A stretch of DNA of 49,846 nt from the IMG/VR virus record IMGVR_UViG_3300035010_000006, positions 1-49,846 of that record; one strand, given 5' to 3'. Source of the stretch: a virus. The stretch's first letter is position 1. The number at the start of each line of letters is the position of its first letter. Shown piece by piece: positions 37,255-44,401 of this stretch. The translations under genes and the position numbers were made by a program. The notes beneath the pieces are model-generated. The model saw nothing but the letters and a program-made list of their open reading frames with translations, had not been told where the DNA came from and did no database searches.

Positions 37255-38211
37255 ATGCCTCGTGCCATCGGCGCGAACTCGCGCCTGCTCATGATCCCCG
37301 AGGTCACCTACGGCACCGCACCAGGCGGCAACTGGCGGCGGGTGCCCTTCCTCTCCTGCAACCTCGGCGCCGAGCAGCCGCTGCTCGACGCGGACGTCAT
37401 CGGCCTTGGCGGCAATCGCGATCCCGCCGCGCCGTTCTTCGACACGGTCACGGTCGAGGGCGACGCCGTCGTGCCGGTGGACCTGATCAACATCGGCCAC
37501 TGGCTGCGCCTGCTGCTCGGCGTGCCGAGCACCACCGGCACCAACCCAAACTTCACGCACACCTTCGGCTCCGGCGCGGCGACGCTGCCCTCCCAGGCGA
37601 TCGAGATCGGCTATCCAGACGTACCGAGCTACGACGTCTGCGCCGGCGTGCGCGCGGACGCGCTGGAGATCGACTTCAGCCCGACCGGACCGGCGACGGC
37701 CACGATCAAGCGGATCGCTCAGGGCTCGACGCGCTCGGGCTCGTCCTCCGGCGGCACGCCGGTTTCGGCGGCCTACACCGCGTTCAACAAGGCGCAGGGC
37801 TCGATCACGCGCGGCGGGTCCGCGCTGGCGCAGGTCACCGGCGCGCGGCTTGCCTACTCGAACAGCGTCGAGGCGGTGCGCACCATCCGCGCCGACCGGA
37901 AGATCGAGGGGGCGGATCCCGGCATCGCGCGCGCCACCGGCCAGATCACCGCGCGCTTCGCGGACACCACGCTGCTGACGCAGGCGCAGAACGGCACGGC
38001 GGCGGAGTTCGCCTTCGCGTTCACCATCGACGCCAACCGCAGCCTCACCTTCACGCTGCACGAGGTCTACCTGGCGCTCGCGAAGACCCCGATCGAGGGG
38101 CCGGCGGGCGTCGAGGCGAGCTTTGAGTTCCGCGCAGCCTTCAACGCGACGGCGACACGCATGCTGACGGCGGTGCTGAAGAACCAGCAGGCGGGGACGG
38201 AGTACGCCTAA
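37255..38211 (+). CDS. Tail tube protein
   Basis: 318 residues with GGAG before the ATG. The opening ANSRLLMIPEVTYGTAPGGN and later DFSPTGPATATIKRIAQGS are typical of siphovirus tail tube proteins of the Phage_TTP_10 type. The fold is beta-rich throughout. It should polymerise around the tape measure to form the tail tube. It is the last gene before the first minus-strand cargo island. Confidence 0.88.
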   Translation: MPRAIGANSRLLMIPEVTYGTAPGGNWRRVPFLSCNLGAEQPLLDADVIGLGGNRDPAAPFFDTVTVEGDAVVPVDLINIGHWLRLLLGVPSTTGTNPNFTHTFGSGAATLPSQAIEIGYPDVPSYDVCAGVRADALEIDFSPTGPATATIKRIAQGSTRSGSSSGGTPVSAAYTAFNKAQGSITRGGSALAQVTGARLAYSNSVEAVRTIRADRKIEGADPGIARATGQITARFADTTLLTQAQNGTAAEFAFAFTIDANRSLTFTLHEVYLALAKTPIEGPAGVEASFEFRAAFNATATRMLTAVLKNQQAGTEYA

Positions 38212-38222
38212 TCCCCGTACTG

Positions 38223-39110
38223 CTACGTGGGAGGAATCGAGGCGGCTTGCCGTGCCAGGCGGTTCTCAACAAATCGAAGTTGTTGATCATCCCGGCCGTA
38301 GACGAACCTCGATGCTTGCCGCACCACCACATCGTTGATGTGCGCCTGAAGCGCCCGGATCGGCGCAGCGCGGATCTGCGCCAACATCTCCTCGGTGTTG
38401 GTGGCTACGAACATCGTCGAGGGGCCGAGTGGAAGCACGATATGGCCGTCGGGTCGATCTAGGCCATTGCTCGTCACTAGGGGATGGTCGGATGTGAGAA
38501 AGCTGCGGTCAGAACCGTCGATGCCGACGACATGCCACGTCATGCGGTTCAGGAAGTCGCCGACGCGCTGACTGTCCACGGCACGCCGGAACACCTCTGC
38601 CCAGAGCCGCTGATCGGCATCGCGGTTGAGATCGTCGTAAAAGTCGTCGAAGGACCGCGGATCGTCGGGCGCGCGCTTCTCGTGAAAGAGCTGCTCGTAC
38701 TGGCTCATGTTCGCGGAGACATACCGTCGGCACCGCTCCTTCAACGCCGCCAGCCGCGTCGGCGAGCGATGGTGCAGCGACATGACAAACCGAGACCATC
38801 CGTCGCGCAGCCTGGGCGATAGGGCCGCAGGTCCCTGGCCCTGATCGAGCATCACGTCCAGCGCGTCGCTTGCGAGCTGATCAACCTGCTTGAGAAAGTG
38901 ATCCTCCAGCATCGTCCGATGTTCAGCAGGGAACCCCGGCACAGAGTACAGGTCGACCTCGAAGCCTGCCGCAGTCGGCGCCTTCAGCTGCGGCACCACT
39001 TTCCGGTGAGGCCGGCTGTACTGGCATACGCGCCCGCCGGTTTCCCACCGCTTGAGGTAGAACACCGGCACGTAGTGATGCCGCCTTGATTGCTGGAGCA
39101 CGGACGACAT
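38223..39110 (-). CDS. DUF4238 protein (cargo gene)
   Basis: 295 residues on the minus strand. The opening RRHHYVPVFYLKRWETGGRV is the DUF4238 hallmark (HHYVP), and the later block RSFLTSDHPLVTSN is also typical. The activity is unproven; the conserved His pair and Asp/His residues suggest a catalytic role. It is encoded against the tail operon and has lower GC (by eye) than flanking phage genes, so it was probably acquired as cargo. It lies next to a toxin-antitoxin module. Confidence 0.82.
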   Translation of the reverse strand: MSSVLQQSRRHHYVPVFYLKRWETGGRVCQYSRPHRKVVPQLKAPTAAGFEVDLYSVPGFPAEHRTMLEDHFLKQVDQLASDALDVMLDQGQGPAALSPRLRDGWSRFVMSLHHRSPTRLAALKERCRRYVSANMSQYEQLFHEKRAPDDPRSFDDFYDDLNRDADQRLWAEVFRRAVDSQRVGDFLNRMTWHVVGIDGSDRSFLTSDHPLVTSNGLDRPDGHIVLPLGPSTMFVATNTEEMLAQIRAAPIRALQAHINDVVVRQASRFVYGRDDQQLRFVENRLARQAASIPPT

Positions 39111-39120
39111 TGGCTGCTCG

Positions 39121-39570
39121 CTACTCGGTCCGCCTCACGGCATGGACGGCGCGCTCCGCTCGCCATCGTCTGAGCGCTTCGCGGACTTCCGCCATGAGTC
39201 TGTCGGGGAGAAGCCCGTAGCTCACGTCAAGATCGCCGGCTCCGCGATCCACGGGCCGCAGATCAGGTCCGGGCCAGACGAAGCGGTTGTATTCGCTAAC
39301 CACAACCCAGCATGGCTCTGCCTGAAGACCGAGGCGCGCGCGTGTGGCGGTGGGAAGCAGAACCGCAGTCGCAGGTTCGATCGGCCGGCTTGAGGTGATC
39401 GGCAGCACGACGACTTCGTGCTGCCCGTCCGCCTGCTGGAGCACGGCGACCACAGCCGCGGGGCGATCCTTGGTGCCTTCCTCACGGCCCGAGGCGTACT
39501 CGTGGCTCCACAGATAGTTGTAGCGAATGACCTCGCCGACGGCCGGAAGGGGCAGGCTACTCGACTTCAC
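39121..39570 (-). CDS. PemK/MazF-like toxin
   Basis: 149 residues from GTG 39570. The core AVGEVIRYNYLWSHEYASGR, KDRPAAVVAVL and VVVLPITSSRP is the plasmid-maintenance toxin family of the PemK/MazF fold that is common in alphaproteobacterial prophages; SEYNRFVWPGPDLRP is a further family mark. I choose GTG 39570 over ATG 39609 because it overlaps the antitoxin stop by only 14 bp and starts directly before the conserved domain. It should cut mRNA when free of antitoxin. Confidence 0.8.
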   Translation of the reverse strand: MKSSSLPLPAVGEVIRYNYLWSHEYASGREEGTKDRPAAVVAVLQQADGQHEVVVLPITSSRPIEPATAVLLPTATRARLGLQAEPCWVVVSEYNRFVWPGPDLRPVDRGAGDLDVSYGLLPDRLMAEVREALRRWRAERAVHAVRRTE

Positions 39571-39823
39571 GGTCGAACTGCTTGGCTTCCTCGGGGGGGC
39601 GTGCGGCAAGGATCGCGTCGATCACATCCTGCGGCGCGTCCTCGGTGCGCATCACCTGGCGATCGCGGCGCTTGAGGCGCTCGTATTCCTCGACCGAGAT
39701 CATGACGGTGCGCGGCCGGCCATTGCGGGTGATGGCGACGGGTTGGGTCAGGGCTTTGTCCTGATAGAGGCCGAAGTTCCGCTGCGCCTCGGCCGCCGGG
39801 ACCTTGAGCATGGGCTCGGTCAT
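39557..39823 (-). CDS. Phd/YefM-family antitoxin
   Basis: 88 residues. The pattern LKVPAAEAQRNFGLYQDKAL, VAITRNGRPRTVMISVEEYE is the standard Phd/YefM DNA-binding domain. The C-terminal ~30 residues (DAPQDVIDAILAARPPEEAK) should wrap and block the toxin encoded just downstream. Such antitoxins repress their own promoter; a palindrome lies in the upstream gap at 39840-39849. The gene is divergent from the tail chaperone gene. Confidence 0.88.
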   Translation of the reverse strand: MTEPMLKVPAAEAQRNFGLYQDKALTQPVAITRNGRPRTVMISVEEYERLKRRDRQVMRTEDAPQDVIDAILAARPPEEAKQFDREVE

Positions 39824-39839
39824 CGGGGTGTTCCTTGGT

Positions 39840-39849
39840 TTCTGCAGAA
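39840..39849. promoter_or_regulatory. Palindrome in toxin-antitoxin promoter region
   Basis: TTCTGCAGAA is a perfect 10-bp palindrome 17 bp before the antitoxin start. On the minus strand TATGTATTCTGCAG gives a possible -10 (TATGTA or TATTCT). It could be the antitoxin's own operator, and binding there might also affect the divergent tail gene. Confidence 0.35.
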
Positions 39850-39877
39850 TACATAACCCATGGAGGACCAGTTTTCC

Positions 39878-40255
39878 ATGTTCACCCTCGACCTCCCGGC
39901 CGAGCCGTACTGGCTCGACCTGCCGCGCGGCGTCCGCGTGGAGATCCGCCCCGTGACGACCGCGGTGATGGCCGCCGCGCAGGCCGCGGCGGCACGCCGC
40001 CTCGCCGCGATCCGCATCGCCGATCCGGACCTCGACCCCGACATGTCGCGCGGCCTGTCCTTCGCCTTCCTCGTGAAAGTTCTCGCCCGCCACGCTGTCA
40101 CGGCCTGGGAGGGTATCGGCGATGCCGCCGGCAAGCCGCTGCCGCTCTCGCCCGAGGCGGTCGAGCGCCTGATGGACCTCGACGACATCGCCGCCGCCTT
40201 CTGGGACCGCGCCACCGCACCGGTCGCGGCGGTGGCCGCCGAGGGAAACGGCTGA
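39878..40255 (+). CDS. Tail assembly chaperone (gpG-like)
   Basis: 125 residues from ATG 39878, chosen because GGAGG lies 11 bases before it; the upstream ATG 39860 lacks a ribosome site. The N-terminal part (FTLDLPAEPYWLDLPRGVRV, then RPVTTAVMAAAQAAA) and a helical end (SPEAVERLMDLDDIAAAFWD) fit a tail chaperone of the lambda G role. The gene ends at TGA 40253-40255, 4 bases after a slippery GGGAAAC, so some ribosomes should shift and make the longer form listed next. It probably coats the tape measure during tail assembly. Confidence 0.75.
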   Translation: MFTLDLPAEPYWLDLPRGVRVEIRPVTTAVMAAAQAAAARRLAAIRIADPDLDPDMSRGLSFAFLVKVLARHAVTAWEGIGDAAGKPLPLSPEAVERLMDLDDIAAAFWDRATAPVAAVAAEGNG

Positions 40256-40590
40256 GGGCTCGCGCCGCCTGGCACTTCGGCCGCGGGCCCGAGTACTGCC
40301 ACGGCTGCGCTGGCCTTGGCCGAGATTGCGCCGACGCCTGTCCCTACGCCGCGCACGCACCGACCAGCCTCGAAGGCCACGCCTGCTGGTCTGCCGGCAC
40401 CACCTGCGCTGAGGTCACGATGGCCGGCCTGACCCTCGACACCGCGGGCGCGCTCGCCGCAGCGCGGGAAATGGGCGCCTCTGGCTGGGCCGCGGCGGAG
40501 TTGCTGACGGCTATGCGCCTTGGCATGGCCGCGGGGACCGCTACCCGTCGGGAGGAGGCGGGAGGGTCACTCGGGGAAAGCCTTAAATAA
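39878..40590 (+). CDS. Frameshifted tail chaperone fusion (gpGT-like)
   Basis: At 40243-40249 the sequence GGGAAAC lies in the correct phase (G-GGA-AAC) for a -1 slip. Reading then continues as CGG-CTG-AGG and gives 113 more residues (RLRARAAWHFGRGPEYCHGC onward) to a stop at 40588-40590, for a 237-residue fusion. Lambda makes gpGT from GGGAAAG in the same gene position. The extension is Cys-rich (EYCHGCAGLGRDCADACPY and later HACW, TTC), suggesting a zinc site. Independent translation from an internal ATG near 40420 is possible but explains the data less well. Confidence 0.75.
40243..40249 (+). promoter_or_regulatory. Programmed -1 frameshift slippery site
   Basis: GGGAAAC fits X-XXY-YYZ in the phase of the chaperone gene. 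The zero-frame stop follows 4 bases later. GC-rich sequence downstream (40250-40300) could fold as a stimulator, though I did not compute a structure. Confidence 0.75.
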
Positions 40591-40660: not shown

Positions 40661-42070
40661 TCAGGCCCAGAAGGGGAGGTACCGGGCGAACTTCCGCGAA
40701 CCGCCGACCTTCTCGTCCGGCTTGATCAGCCCCGCCTCGACGGTGGCCGCAATGATCTGCGACGTTATGGCCGCCTTCGATTCGGGGAGGTTGAAGCGCT
40801 CCCGGAGCGATTGGTTCGTCATGCGCTCGGACATCACCCACTTCAGCGCAGCGTGCTGGTAGCAAGCGCGAACGCGATCCTCGCGATCCATCGCGTCGAA
40901 GGGGCGATGACCGAAAATCGTGATGACCGTGCGCCGATGCCCGACCCGGAAGTCCGGCGCCGGCAGTTGGTACACTTCCGCGGCATGCACGACCCTGTCG
41001 ATCCCGCTACCCTTCTCCTCGCAGATACCGAGCCGTCGCATGAGATCAGCCAGGCGCTCATTGCGCGACTGATACCCGTCGATGAAGCGAGCCACGTCCA
41101 CGATGGGCTCGCCAGGGTTCGAGATCTCCAGCCGATCGGCATAGATCTCGACCATGACCGACGCGCCGCCCATCTCGAGGTCCTGGTGGATCAGGGCATT
41201 CGCCACCAGCTCGCGAATCACCACCTCCGGGACAAGCTTCACCTCGGTGCGCAGTGCGTCCTTGATGACCTCATTCTGGGGAAGCTGCCCCATCACGAAG
41301 CGGACCAGTCCCTGGAAGCCAGCCGCGTACCCTCGTGCACCGAGCTGGTCGAGCTTTGTCTCCAGCTTTGACGTACCGCTGTAGACGACGACCCGAGGCG
41401 CCTTGCGCGCGACATCCGGGAAGTCTGAAAGCTGCTTCGCCAGCATCAATGCGCCGAGGCGGCGCACGGCGTATCCTTCTGGCGTCTCGTCGGCCAGCCG
41501 CTCTCTGACGAGGCGCTCGATGACGCCGGATCGATCGGTTGGGTAGGGCAATTTCAGAAGCTCGAAGAACGCCTGCGTGTCGAGCAGCTCCACGACCGCC
41601 TGCGCATCGAGCCCGATCCGTGCGTGCTGCTCCAACCAATCGGGCTGACCCTCCGCGAATATCCGCCGCAGGTGATCCTCGCTCATCGGCACGAGCGATT
41701 CACCCGCGCGCATCAGGTAGGCGCCGTCCAAGTGGTAGGCCGTCCCGCGCGGACGCGACGGGATGTGGAAGACAAGCACCCGCCCGTCCGGATGGCTCAC
41801 TTCTTCGATCTCGACTCGGAATCCAACGGCTTTGAACAGACGCTCTGCCGCTACCACGATGTCGAGAAATGCCCGTGTGCCGACAACGGGCCGCGGTGGC
41901 GCATCGGCGATGCCAAGCAAAAGGTGCCCGCCGCCCTCGTTTGCGATGGCGACGCAGTACCGGTTGAGCTTGTCCGTGTCGTACTGAGTCTTGGCTTCCT
42001 TGAACTCGAGGCGCTGATGCTCCGTCGAGGCCTGGCGCCAGAGATCGATCTGCTGCGGCGTCGTCGGCAT
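40661..42070 (-). CDS. AlbA_2/Schlafen-type ATP-binding protein (cargo gene)
   Basis: 469 residues on the minus strand. The AlbA_2 domain (~10-130) carries E17, E22 (LEFKEAK) and D56 (LLLGIAD), spaced like the acidic triad of Schlafen-type RNases. The ATPase-like half has the N-box VIRELVANALIHQDLE, the DRLEISNPGEP strand, and a glycine loop (EEKGSGIDRVVHAA). A winged-helix part ends the protein. Proteins of this kind act as regulators or defence effectors. Lower GC than the phage genes (one counted line, 36 of 60) and opposite orientation suggest cargo. Its architecture equals the first ~450 residues of the Argonaute fusion at 699. Confidence 0.85.
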   Translation of the reverse strand: MPTTPQQIDLWRQASTEHQRLEFKEAKTQYDTDKLNRYCVAIANEGGGHLLLGIADAPPRPVVGTRAFLDIVVAAERLFKAVGFRVEIEEVSHPDGRVLVFHIPSRPRGTAYHLDGAYLMRAGESLVPMSEDHLRRIFAEGQPDWLEQHARIGLDAQAVVELLDTQAFFELLKLPYPTDRSGVIERLVRERLADETPEGYAVRRLGALMLAKQLSDFPDVARKAPRVVVYSGTSKLETKLDQLGARGYAAGFQGLVRFVMGQLPQNEVIKDALRTEVKLVPEVVIRELVANALIHQDLEMGGASVMVEIYADRLEISNPGEPIVDVARFIDGYQSRNERLADLMRRLGICEEKGSGIDRVVHAAEVYQLPAPDFRVGHRRTVITIFGHRPFDAMDREDRVRACYQHAALKWVMSERMTNQSLRERFNLPESKAAITSQIIAATVEAGLIKPDEKVGGSRKFARYLPFWA

Positions 42071-42232: not shown

Positions 42233-44401
42233 ATGGCTGATGCAACCCGCCGCGTCTCGGTCCGCCTCTCGCTGGACGACGCCGCCCGGGTCAAGGCCGG
42301 GCTGCGCGAGGTCGGCGAGACCGGCCAGCGCTCGCTCGACCAGATCAAGGGCGGCGCCGAGCGCGCCTCGCGCTCCCTCGAACTACTCGACCTCGCCACG
42401 CGCGGCATCCAGATCGCCGGCGTGGCCGTCGCCGCCCGCGCCCTGGTCCAGGCCGGCGACGCGCTCACCCAGGGCCTCTCCCGCCTGCAGAACGCCACGG
42501 GCTCGGTCGAGCGCGCCGGGCAGGTCTACGAGGCGCTGTACCGCAACGCGCTCTCCACCGGCGTCGCCGTTTCCGAGAGCGTCGACGCCTTCCAGCGCTT
42601 CTCGATCGCCGCACGCGAGATCGGCGCCACCTCGGACCAGGTGGTCCGCCTCGTCGGCGGCCTGCAGCGCGTTGCTATCGTCTCCGGCGCCTCGACCCAG
42701 GAGATCTCCTCGGCCACGCTGCAACTCGCCCAAGCGCTGGCCTCGGGCGTGCTCCAGGGCGACGAGTTGCGTTCCATCCTCGAGGCCATGCCGCTGCTGG
42801 CCGAGGGCCTGGCGCGCGAGCTCGGCGTCTCCATCGGCGAACTGCGCAAGCTCGGCTCCGAGGGCAAGCTCACCGCCGAGCGGGTCTTCCCCGCGCTGCT
42901 GCGCGCCACCGAACGGCTCGGCGCGGAACTCGACCGCGCCCCGCTCTCGCTCGGCCGCGCCTTCGGGCAGCTCACGGCCGCGACCGAGAACTTCCTCGGC
43001 CAGCTTGACCGCGCCATCGGCCTGTCCAACGCGCTCGCCCGTGCCCTCTCGGCCGCGGCGCGCGCCGTGGACAGCGTCCGCCAGGGTGCCGGCCTGCGCA
43101 GCGAGGAGGAACGCCTCGCCGGCCTGCGCCGCCAGGCCGACGCGTTGTCGGCGCAGATCGGCCGGCTGGAGAGCGAGGGCGACGGCCGTGACAGCCTCCG
43201 CGCCCCGGTCCGCCGCGGCAGCATCCGCCCCGGCCTGGTCGGCGCCGCCGAGCAGCAGGCCGGCGTCGACAGCCGGGCGCGGCTGGAGGAGCTGCGCCGG
43301 GACTACTTCGCCACCCTGGCCGAGATCGACACCGCCGAGCGGGAGTCGCTGAACCGCCGGCTGGAGGAGCAGGAGCGCGCCGGCCAGGCCGCCGCCGACG
43401 CGCGCCGGCGCCGCGCCACGCAGGACGTCCAGGAGCTCACCCGCGACCTCGACGACCGCTTCCGGATCAACCGCGAATACGAGGAGCGCGTCCGCAGGCT
43501 GCGCGAGGCGGAGGCGGCGGGCGGTGTCACCGCCGCCGAGCGCACCCGCCTCGAGACGCTGGCGCTGCAGGAGCGCGACGAGGCGCTGCGCCGCCTGGAG
43601 CCGCGCGTCGCCGCGGTGCGACGCGCCAGCACCGAGGGCGCGCGCGAGGCGCGCGACGCTGAGCGCCAGCTGAACGACCTGCTGCGCGAGCGCGAGCGCC
43701 TGATCCAGGACAACGAGACCGCCTATGAGCGCTACCAGCGCCGGCTGGAGCGGCTTGGCGACCTGGTGCAGCGCGCCGAGCGCGCTGGCCGGCCGATCCC
43801 CGACGAGACGATCGGGCGCGAGGCGCAGCGCGCGCTGGAGGATCTGGAGGAGGCTGAGCGGCGGCTGCAGCGCAGCACCGAGGGCACGCGCGAGGCGGCG
43901 CGGGAGCTGGGCTTCGCGTTCTCCTCCGCCTTCGAGGACGCGATCGTGCGCGGCGACAAGCTGTCGAAGGTCATGCAGGGCCTGCTGCAGGACATCACCC
44001 GCATCATCGCGCGCCGCACCATCACCGAGCCGCTGGGCAATGCGGTCTCGGCCGGCCTCACCAGCCTCGGCGCCGGCAGCTGGTTCGATGGCATCGATTC
44101 CTGGCTCGGCGGCCTGTTCCGGGCGGACGGCGGGCCGGTCGCCGCCGGCCAGCCCTACATCGTCGGCGAGCGCGGGCCCGAATGGTTCGTCCCGGACCGC
44201 GGCGGGACCGTGCTGCCGAACGGCATGGCGCCTGGCGGGCGGGTCATCCAGCAGACCATCAACATCGACGCGCGCGGCGCCGATGCCGGCGTCGAGGCGC
44301 GGCTGCGGCTGCTCGCCGGGCAGATTGCCCGGCAGGCCTCAACAATGACGCTCGATGCCATCCGCCGCGGCGGCAGCGCCTACGAGACGGTGCGGGGATG
44401 A
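42233..44401 (+). CDS. Tape measure protein
   Basis: 722 residues with GAGGGAGA before the ATG. Residues ~80-290 match the tape measure domain (VSESVDAFQRFSIAAREIGA, STQEISSATLQLAQALASGV, then LLAEGLARELGVSIGELRKL). The middle is a long charged coiled coil, and the end has RADGGPVAAGQPYIVGERGP, a lambda tape-measure C-terminal pattern. At the usual ~1.5 Angstrom per residue it would set a tail of about 0.1 micrometre. The next gene overlaps by 4 bp. It is short compared with many siphovirus tape measures. Confidence 0.93.
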   Translation: MADATRRVSVRLSLDDAARVKAGLREVGETGQRSLDQIKGGAERASRSLELLDLATRGIQIAGVAVAARALVQAGDALTQGLSRLQNATGSVERAGQVYEALYRNALSTGVAVSESVDAFQRFSIAAREIGATSDQVVRLVGGLQRVAIVSGASTQEISSATLQLAQALASGVLQGDELRSILEAMPLLAEGLARELGVSIGELRKLGSEGKLTAERVFPALLRATERLGAELDRAPLSLGRAFGQLTAATENFLGQLDRAIGLSNALARALSAAARAVDSVRQGAGLRSEEERLAGLRRQADALSAQIGRLESEGDGRDSLRAPVRRGSIRPGLVGAAEQQAGVDSRARLEELRRDYFATLAEIDTAERESLNRRLEEQERAGQAAADARRRRATQDVQELTRDLDDRFRINREYEERVRRLREAEAAGGVTAAERTRLETLALQERDEALRRLEPRVAAVRRASTEGAREARDAERQLNDLLRERERLIQDNETAYERYQRRLERLGDLVQRAERAGRPIPDETIGREAQRALEDLEEAERRLQRSTEGTREAARELGFAFSSAFEDAIVRGDKLSKVMQGLLQDITRIIARRTITEPLGNAVSAGLTSLGAGSWFDGIDSWLGGLFRADGGPVAAGQPYIVGERGPEWFVPDRGGTVLPNGMAPGGRVIQQTINIDARGADAGVEARLRLLAGQIARQASTMTLDAIRRGGSAYETVRG

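Follow-up and report, generated by a model that had tools for sequence, protein, structure and literature searches.

A lambda G/GT-type tail assembly chaperone in a siphovirus-like prophage of Roseomonas-type bacteria: probable -1 frameshifting at GGGAAAC into a four-cysteine extension

In phage lambda, gpG and the G part of gpGT bind the tape measure protein, the T part binds the tail tube subunit, and the ratio of gpG to gpGT matters (PMC5009743). The lambda genes lie in the order tube - G - T - tape measure, with a slippery heptamer (GGGAAAG) near the end of G, a short zero-frame tail and an extension in the -1 frame. Rhodobacter RcC phages (RcKemmy, RcOceanus and others) encode a homologue of the chaperone described here (~36% identity) and of its extension, including a four-cysteine site, in genes 15/16. 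RcKemmy has GGGAAAC at the same position, and its annotation already joins the two genes into one tail assembly chaperone. The frameshift mechanism itself is known, and a close case has been recorded. In relatives, the C-terminal half of the same extension corresponds to DUF7697 (PF24752) / PHROG 11212, both filed as of unknown function. As far as the literature was searched, the four-cysteine site in a domain made only by frameshifting, the conserved hairpin downstream of the heptamer and the view that DUF7697 is a fragment are new.

The window, i.e. the whole stretch of DNA analysed (49,846 nt; IMG/VR record IMGVR_UViG_3300035010_000006, positions 1 to 49,846), is related to loci in bacterial genomes mostly of Roseomonas, Neoroseomonas, Falsiroseomonas, Siccirubricoccus and other Acetobacteraceae, and its source element is a siphovirus-like prophage of Roseomonas-type bacteria. 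The chaperone gene, whose N-terminal part is homologous to known tail assembly chaperones (PHROG 313; RcC phages), is flanked by tail tube and tape measure genes, all on the + strand, with cargo genes interspersed (Table 1).

Table 1 Main features of the chaperone locus and its neighbours (positions are those of the window).
Feature	Position	Strand	Basis or remark
Tail tube protein, conserved upstream neighbour	37255-38211	+	Phage_tube_2 PF18906, E 5e-48
DUF4238 protein, cargo beside toxin-antitoxin pair	38223-39110	-	PF14022, 1.4e-38
Toxin-antitoxin pair	39121-39854	-	PemK-like toxin 39121-39609; short antitoxin ORF 39567-39854
Tail assembly chaperone, zero frame, G-like, 125 aa	39878-40255	+	PHROG 313 'Tail assembly chaperone', E 2.1e-15; Rhodobacter RcC phage homologues with same annotation
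Chaperone start, alternatives	39878 (ATG) or 39860	+	GGAGG at 39862-39866 favours 39878
Slippery heptamer G_GGA_AAC	40243-40249	+	Phase checked; kept in relatives
Zero-frame stop TGA	40253-40255	+	Retained in relatives despite rare codons
-1-frame extension (probable T-like domain), 113 aa	40249-40590	+	Open frame, wobble switch, AlphaFold2 pLDDT 88.7
Downstream stem-loop, probable frameshift stimulator	40256-40290	+	Arms 40256-40267 / 40278-40290, bulge 40281
Four-cysteine site C17-x2-C20-x6-C27-x3-C31-P in extension	40297-40341	+	Alignment conservation
Extension, C-terminal half	40420-40590	+	Relatives match DUF7697 (PF24752) / PHROG 11212
Schlafen/AlbA_2 + RecG-like HATPase protein, between extension and tape measure gene	40661-42070	-	
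Tape measure protein, conserved downstream neighbour	42233-44401	+	TMP_3 PF20155, E 1.3e-50; PHROG tape measure matches

Between the tube and chaperone genes lies a hypervariable cargo interval (38212-39877 in the window), also present in the related loci collected (L001-L241). Among Acetobacteraceae relatives all 120 of 120 non-redundant loci differ here (median 1459 nt). The 172 cargo ORFs, 122 of them minus-strand, fall into 115 clusters; because the intervals were delimited by tblastn and the ORFs are mechanical calls, part of the cargo may be misassigned. Cargo families include SIR2, HEPN/Toprim, STAND, GmrSD, caspase, LmuB-like, DSR2-like (L050) and IetS-like (L064) proteins, transporters and regulators; SIR2 and the LmuB-, DSR2- and IetS-like proteins are of defence type. 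Prophage defence hotspots of 1-5 kb described by Rousset et al. (PMC9122126) are similar to this locus but occupy a different position. Toxin-antitoxin loci similar to that of the window are found on Roseomonas plasmids, with annotated Phd/YefM-type antitoxins. A second insertion site, between the extension and the tape measure gene, holds 1.1-1.65 kb in 22 of the loci analysed (some from overlapping fetches) and nothing in most. RcC phages, in contrast, have their tube, chaperone and tape measure genes without intervening cargo. One source (2886789145; IMGVR_UViG_2886789145; loci L172, L180, L189, L199 and L220) contains at least five distinct viral contigs with the chaperone gene, and several related prophages may coexist in this host.

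The zero-frame chaperone gene ends GAG GGA AAC GGC TGA, which places GGGAAAC (of the X_XXY_YYZ type) in phase with the chaperone frame, and the stop codon starts on the fourth base past the heptamer. This is the single copy of GGGAAAC on the plus strand of the 49.8-kb window. After a slip the next codon would be CGG at 40249, from which the -1 frame is open for 113 codons plus a stop, giving a predicted fusion of ~237 aa (124 + 113). A sequence-only reading of this DNA had placed an in-phase heptamer 4 bases before the zero-frame stop and found the -1 frame open for 113 residues, and the coordinates agree with it on both points.

Conservation of the heptamer was examined in two sets of relatives. 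GGGAAAC is found at the identical place in 157 of the 160 non-redundant relatives of the first set, which are mostly Acetobacteraceae prophages and mostly close kin, hence not independent. Of the three exceptions, one is a cyanophage with an A run and two are loci without an intact heptamer: L061, with GTGAAAC and a zero-frame TGA, and L153, where the site is missing and the contig ends nearby; decay of the copy or faulty assembly could account for either. The second set comprises 65 distinct loci, 60 of them outside the first set and mostly distant relatives, and in 64/65 of them the heptamer precedes the YC motif by the same distance, the remaining locus having it 6 nt further upstream. In distant relatives the heptamer is mostly AAAAAAC, and in other clades AAAAAAC, AAAAAAG or AAAAAAA is swapped in at the same place. 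Readable loci outside the YC motif pattern carry a heptamer, again in phase, immediately ahead of the extension. By parsimony, heptamer identity changes seven times on a tree in which several branches are weakly supported, and among distant relatives the changes are between AAAAAAC, GGGAAAC and others, with position unchanged. The sequence-only reading had named relatives that lack a slippery site and carry a separate gene as evidence against frameshifting; such relatives were looked for and not found.

The variable codon position also changes frame at the heptamer, which is counted for frameshifting: upstream, the variable base is position 3 of the zero frame (entropy 0.90), and downstream it is position 3 of the -1 frame (entropy 0.93). 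In 151/152 relatives the zero frame is closed by TGA or TAA. Retention of this stop imposes Leu CTA or CTG and Arg AGG in the -1 frame, of which CTA and AGG are nearly unused in neighbouring phage genes, and by this pattern the zero-frame TGA is under selection. A conserved Shine-Dalgarno-like stimulator was looked for 10-15 nt upstream of the heptamer and none was seen. From these comparisons, programmed -1 frameshifting very probably occurs at GGGAAAC; the lambda G/GT-like arrangement proposed earlier for this gene is strongly backed by the comparative evidence and by the gene order tube - G - T - tape measure. The RcC locus differs in having the zero-frame stop ~30 codons further downstream.

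A stem-loop (MFE -22.5 kcal/mol) follows the heptamer after a spacer of 6 nt; it was absent from the sequence-only reading. Its stability was compared with synonymous-codon shuffles that preserve the protein and draw codons from pooled use. At the hairpin offset the mean z is -2.5 in 15 sequences of the Acetobacteraceae clade and -2.8 in 14 sequences of the other clade; z is near zero at offsets away from the stem, and excess stability is found nowhere else in the extension. The stem register differs between subclades, the proposed registers pairing in 89-95% of cells vs 11-79% when slid. Between clades, some pairs change on both sides (for example offsets 14-45, from G-C to C-G, and 13-46), whereas compensatory changes within subclades are few, so that the energy test is the main support for the hairpin. 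An Rfam search with the hairpin gave no match, and RNAalifold on the pooled clades found no shared structure; the differing pairing registers of the subclades are the probable cause. Taken with its spacing, the hairpin is probably a frameshift stimulator. In lambda the 36 nt just downstream of the heptamer fold weakly (-6.3 kcal/mol vs about -22 for a 40-nt window here).

The extension contains six cysteines, of which C17, C20 and C31 are present in 159/159 and C27 in 157/159 relatives, while C46 is found in only 119/159 and C53 is missing from Rhodobacter and cyanobacterial phages; the RcC extension lacks both C46 and C53. In an alignment of 42 diverse rows that includes Rhodobacter and cyanobacterial phages, the invariant residues include W8, H9, F10, G13, Y16, C17, C20, C27, C31, P32 and W47. 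The dense cysteine cluster noted earlier is thus real, but only four of its six members are conserved, C46 and C53 being dispensable; it does lack a counterpart in lambda T, as had been stated, since the lambda extension has no cysteine. No sequence similarity was found between the lambda extension and that of the window. C17, C20, C27 and C31 provide four residues of metal-ligand type in two close pairs, and spacing of CxxC followed by CxxxC or CxxC is common in zinc knuckles. On conservation and spacing, a structural metal site is the likeliest role of the four cysteines, with zinc as a plausible metal.

Searches of Pfam, PHROG and NCBIfam with the extension of the window gave no significant match. 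Extensions of relatives do match DUF7697/PHROG 11212 (RcKemmy, E 2.8e-16; cyanophage, 1.6e-15; L018, 1.2e-3). Against the DUF7697 cut-off of 27 bits the window copy gives no match and L018 scores 19.2, while the more distant RcKemmy and cyanophage copies pass. Both models start near an internal ATG (40420) and omit the cysteine half, which suggests that DUF7697 and PHROG 11212 are probably truncated calls of a tail chaperone domain made by frameshifting. DUF1799 gave a sub-threshold match to the extension of one relative, and three DUF1799 loci were gathered. AlphaFold2 models from two starting sequences (mean pLDDT 88.7 and 88.8) resemble each other in the succession of elements: helix or helices, cysteine loop, helix, beta hairpin and two helices. 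No PDB match to the extension was found by sequence or by fold (Foldseek). For the second model (the extension of a relative), Foldseek/BFVD ranks a tape measure chaperone first (prob 0.99, E 0.009, TM 0.46), with two further tape measure chaperones in the top five; none of the matches reaches E <= 0.001, and all are weak. The tape measure chaperones matched are those of Enterobacter phage F20, Salmonella phage Shivani and Proteus phage Stubb (prob 0.99, 0.95 and 0.89), with 14-16% identity to the extension and E above 0.001. These matches between models, although weak, fall in the expected functional class, and the extension is probably a T-like domain.

Two other origins of the -1-frame product can be considered. 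The ORF might be a gene in its own right, translated from its own start without any frameshift, as hinted by the internal ATG at 40420 (residue 58) with GAGG a few bases upstream, by the listing of two separate genes in the Nsp-JY21 and Sc-Yong805-1 records, and by the restriction of DUF7697 and PHROG 11212 to the C-terminal half. However, the best-conserved part of the extension (WHFG, YCxxC...CP) lies upstream of this ATG, the heptamer keeps its fixed place, and the wobble position switches there. In addition, 64/97 loci of one clade and 23/45 of the other have no -1-frame start codon (ATG, GTG or TTG) before the Cys motif, and L019 and L096 have a -1-frame stop right next to the heptamer; these start-less loci rule out an own start as the general case, and we regard a separate gene as very improbable. 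The frame might instead be changed by slippage during transcription, not by the ribosome, given that the site in many distant relatives contains a stretch of seven or eight A (AAAAAAAC), on which RNA polymerase can slip. The window and its close relatives have GGGAAAC, with no run over three, and without a long homopolymer transcriptional slippage is unlikely in the window; a hairpin after a 6-nt spacer also suits ribosomal stimulation. We consider this origin, if anything, slightly more remote than a separate gene, and ribosomal frameshifting is retained.

The roles of the hairpin and of the cysteine site leave more room for other readings. The stem lies in a G+C-rich region that encodes the invariant WHFG, strict compensatory changes within subclades are few, and the window copy, taken singly, does not stand out in longer windows, all of which count in favour of a hairpin due to coding constraint and high G+C alone, with no stimulating role. 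Against this, the excess stability in two clades persists with protein and pooled codon use preserved, and both partners of the pairs at offsets 14-45 and 13-46 differ from one clade to the other, making a purely coding origin unlikely and a stimulator the preferred reading. Similarly, the cysteines could bind an iron-sulphur cluster or form disulphides in place of a zinc site, since the candidate ligands are cysteines only and the extension has sub-threshold matches to Fer4. The Pfam Fer4 matches are, however, far below the cut-off, the spacing is one familiar from zinc knuckles, and a protein acting in cytoplasmic assembly would not be expected to need disulphides. Iron-sulphur or disulphide chemistry thus seems improbable to about the same degree as the purely coding hairpin, and a zinc site is preferred.

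Overall, we think it highly likely, from comparison of the sequences, that the locus encodes a G/GT-type chaperone, with a short product and a minority slip fusion that would together coat the tape measure protein and, through the cysteine-site extension, recruit the tail tube. Most ribosomes would terminate at the TGA at 40253 and yield the short chaperone, and a minority would slip back one base on G_GGA_AAC to make the ~237-residue fusion, probably aided by the stem-loop 6 nt downstream. By analogy with lambda, the shared N-terminal part would coat the tape measure protein, while the -1-frame part, held by a four-cysteine and probably zinc-bound site, would recruit the tube subunit. The sequence-only reading had suggested zinc-dependent binding to the tape measure or tube; the tube is a likelier partner of the cysteine domain than the tape measure because it is the tube that the lambda T part binds. 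Comparison of relatives establishes the slippery site and its conservation, the change of frame, selection on the stop and on the hairpin, and the invariance of the four cysteines, while how often ribosomes slip, which metal is bound and which partners bind are what we infer here.

A more speculative idea, to which we give little credence, is that metal loading or redox state licenses tube polymerisation, making tail assembly responsive to zinc or redox conditions; if true, the four-cysteine site of this frameshift-only domain would be more than structural. More generally, the hundreds of cleanly aligned loci make the G/GT frameshift, the zero-frame stop codon and the downstream hairpin directly comparable, and mutating the invariant cysteine site would be a simple way to probe the role of the T domain.
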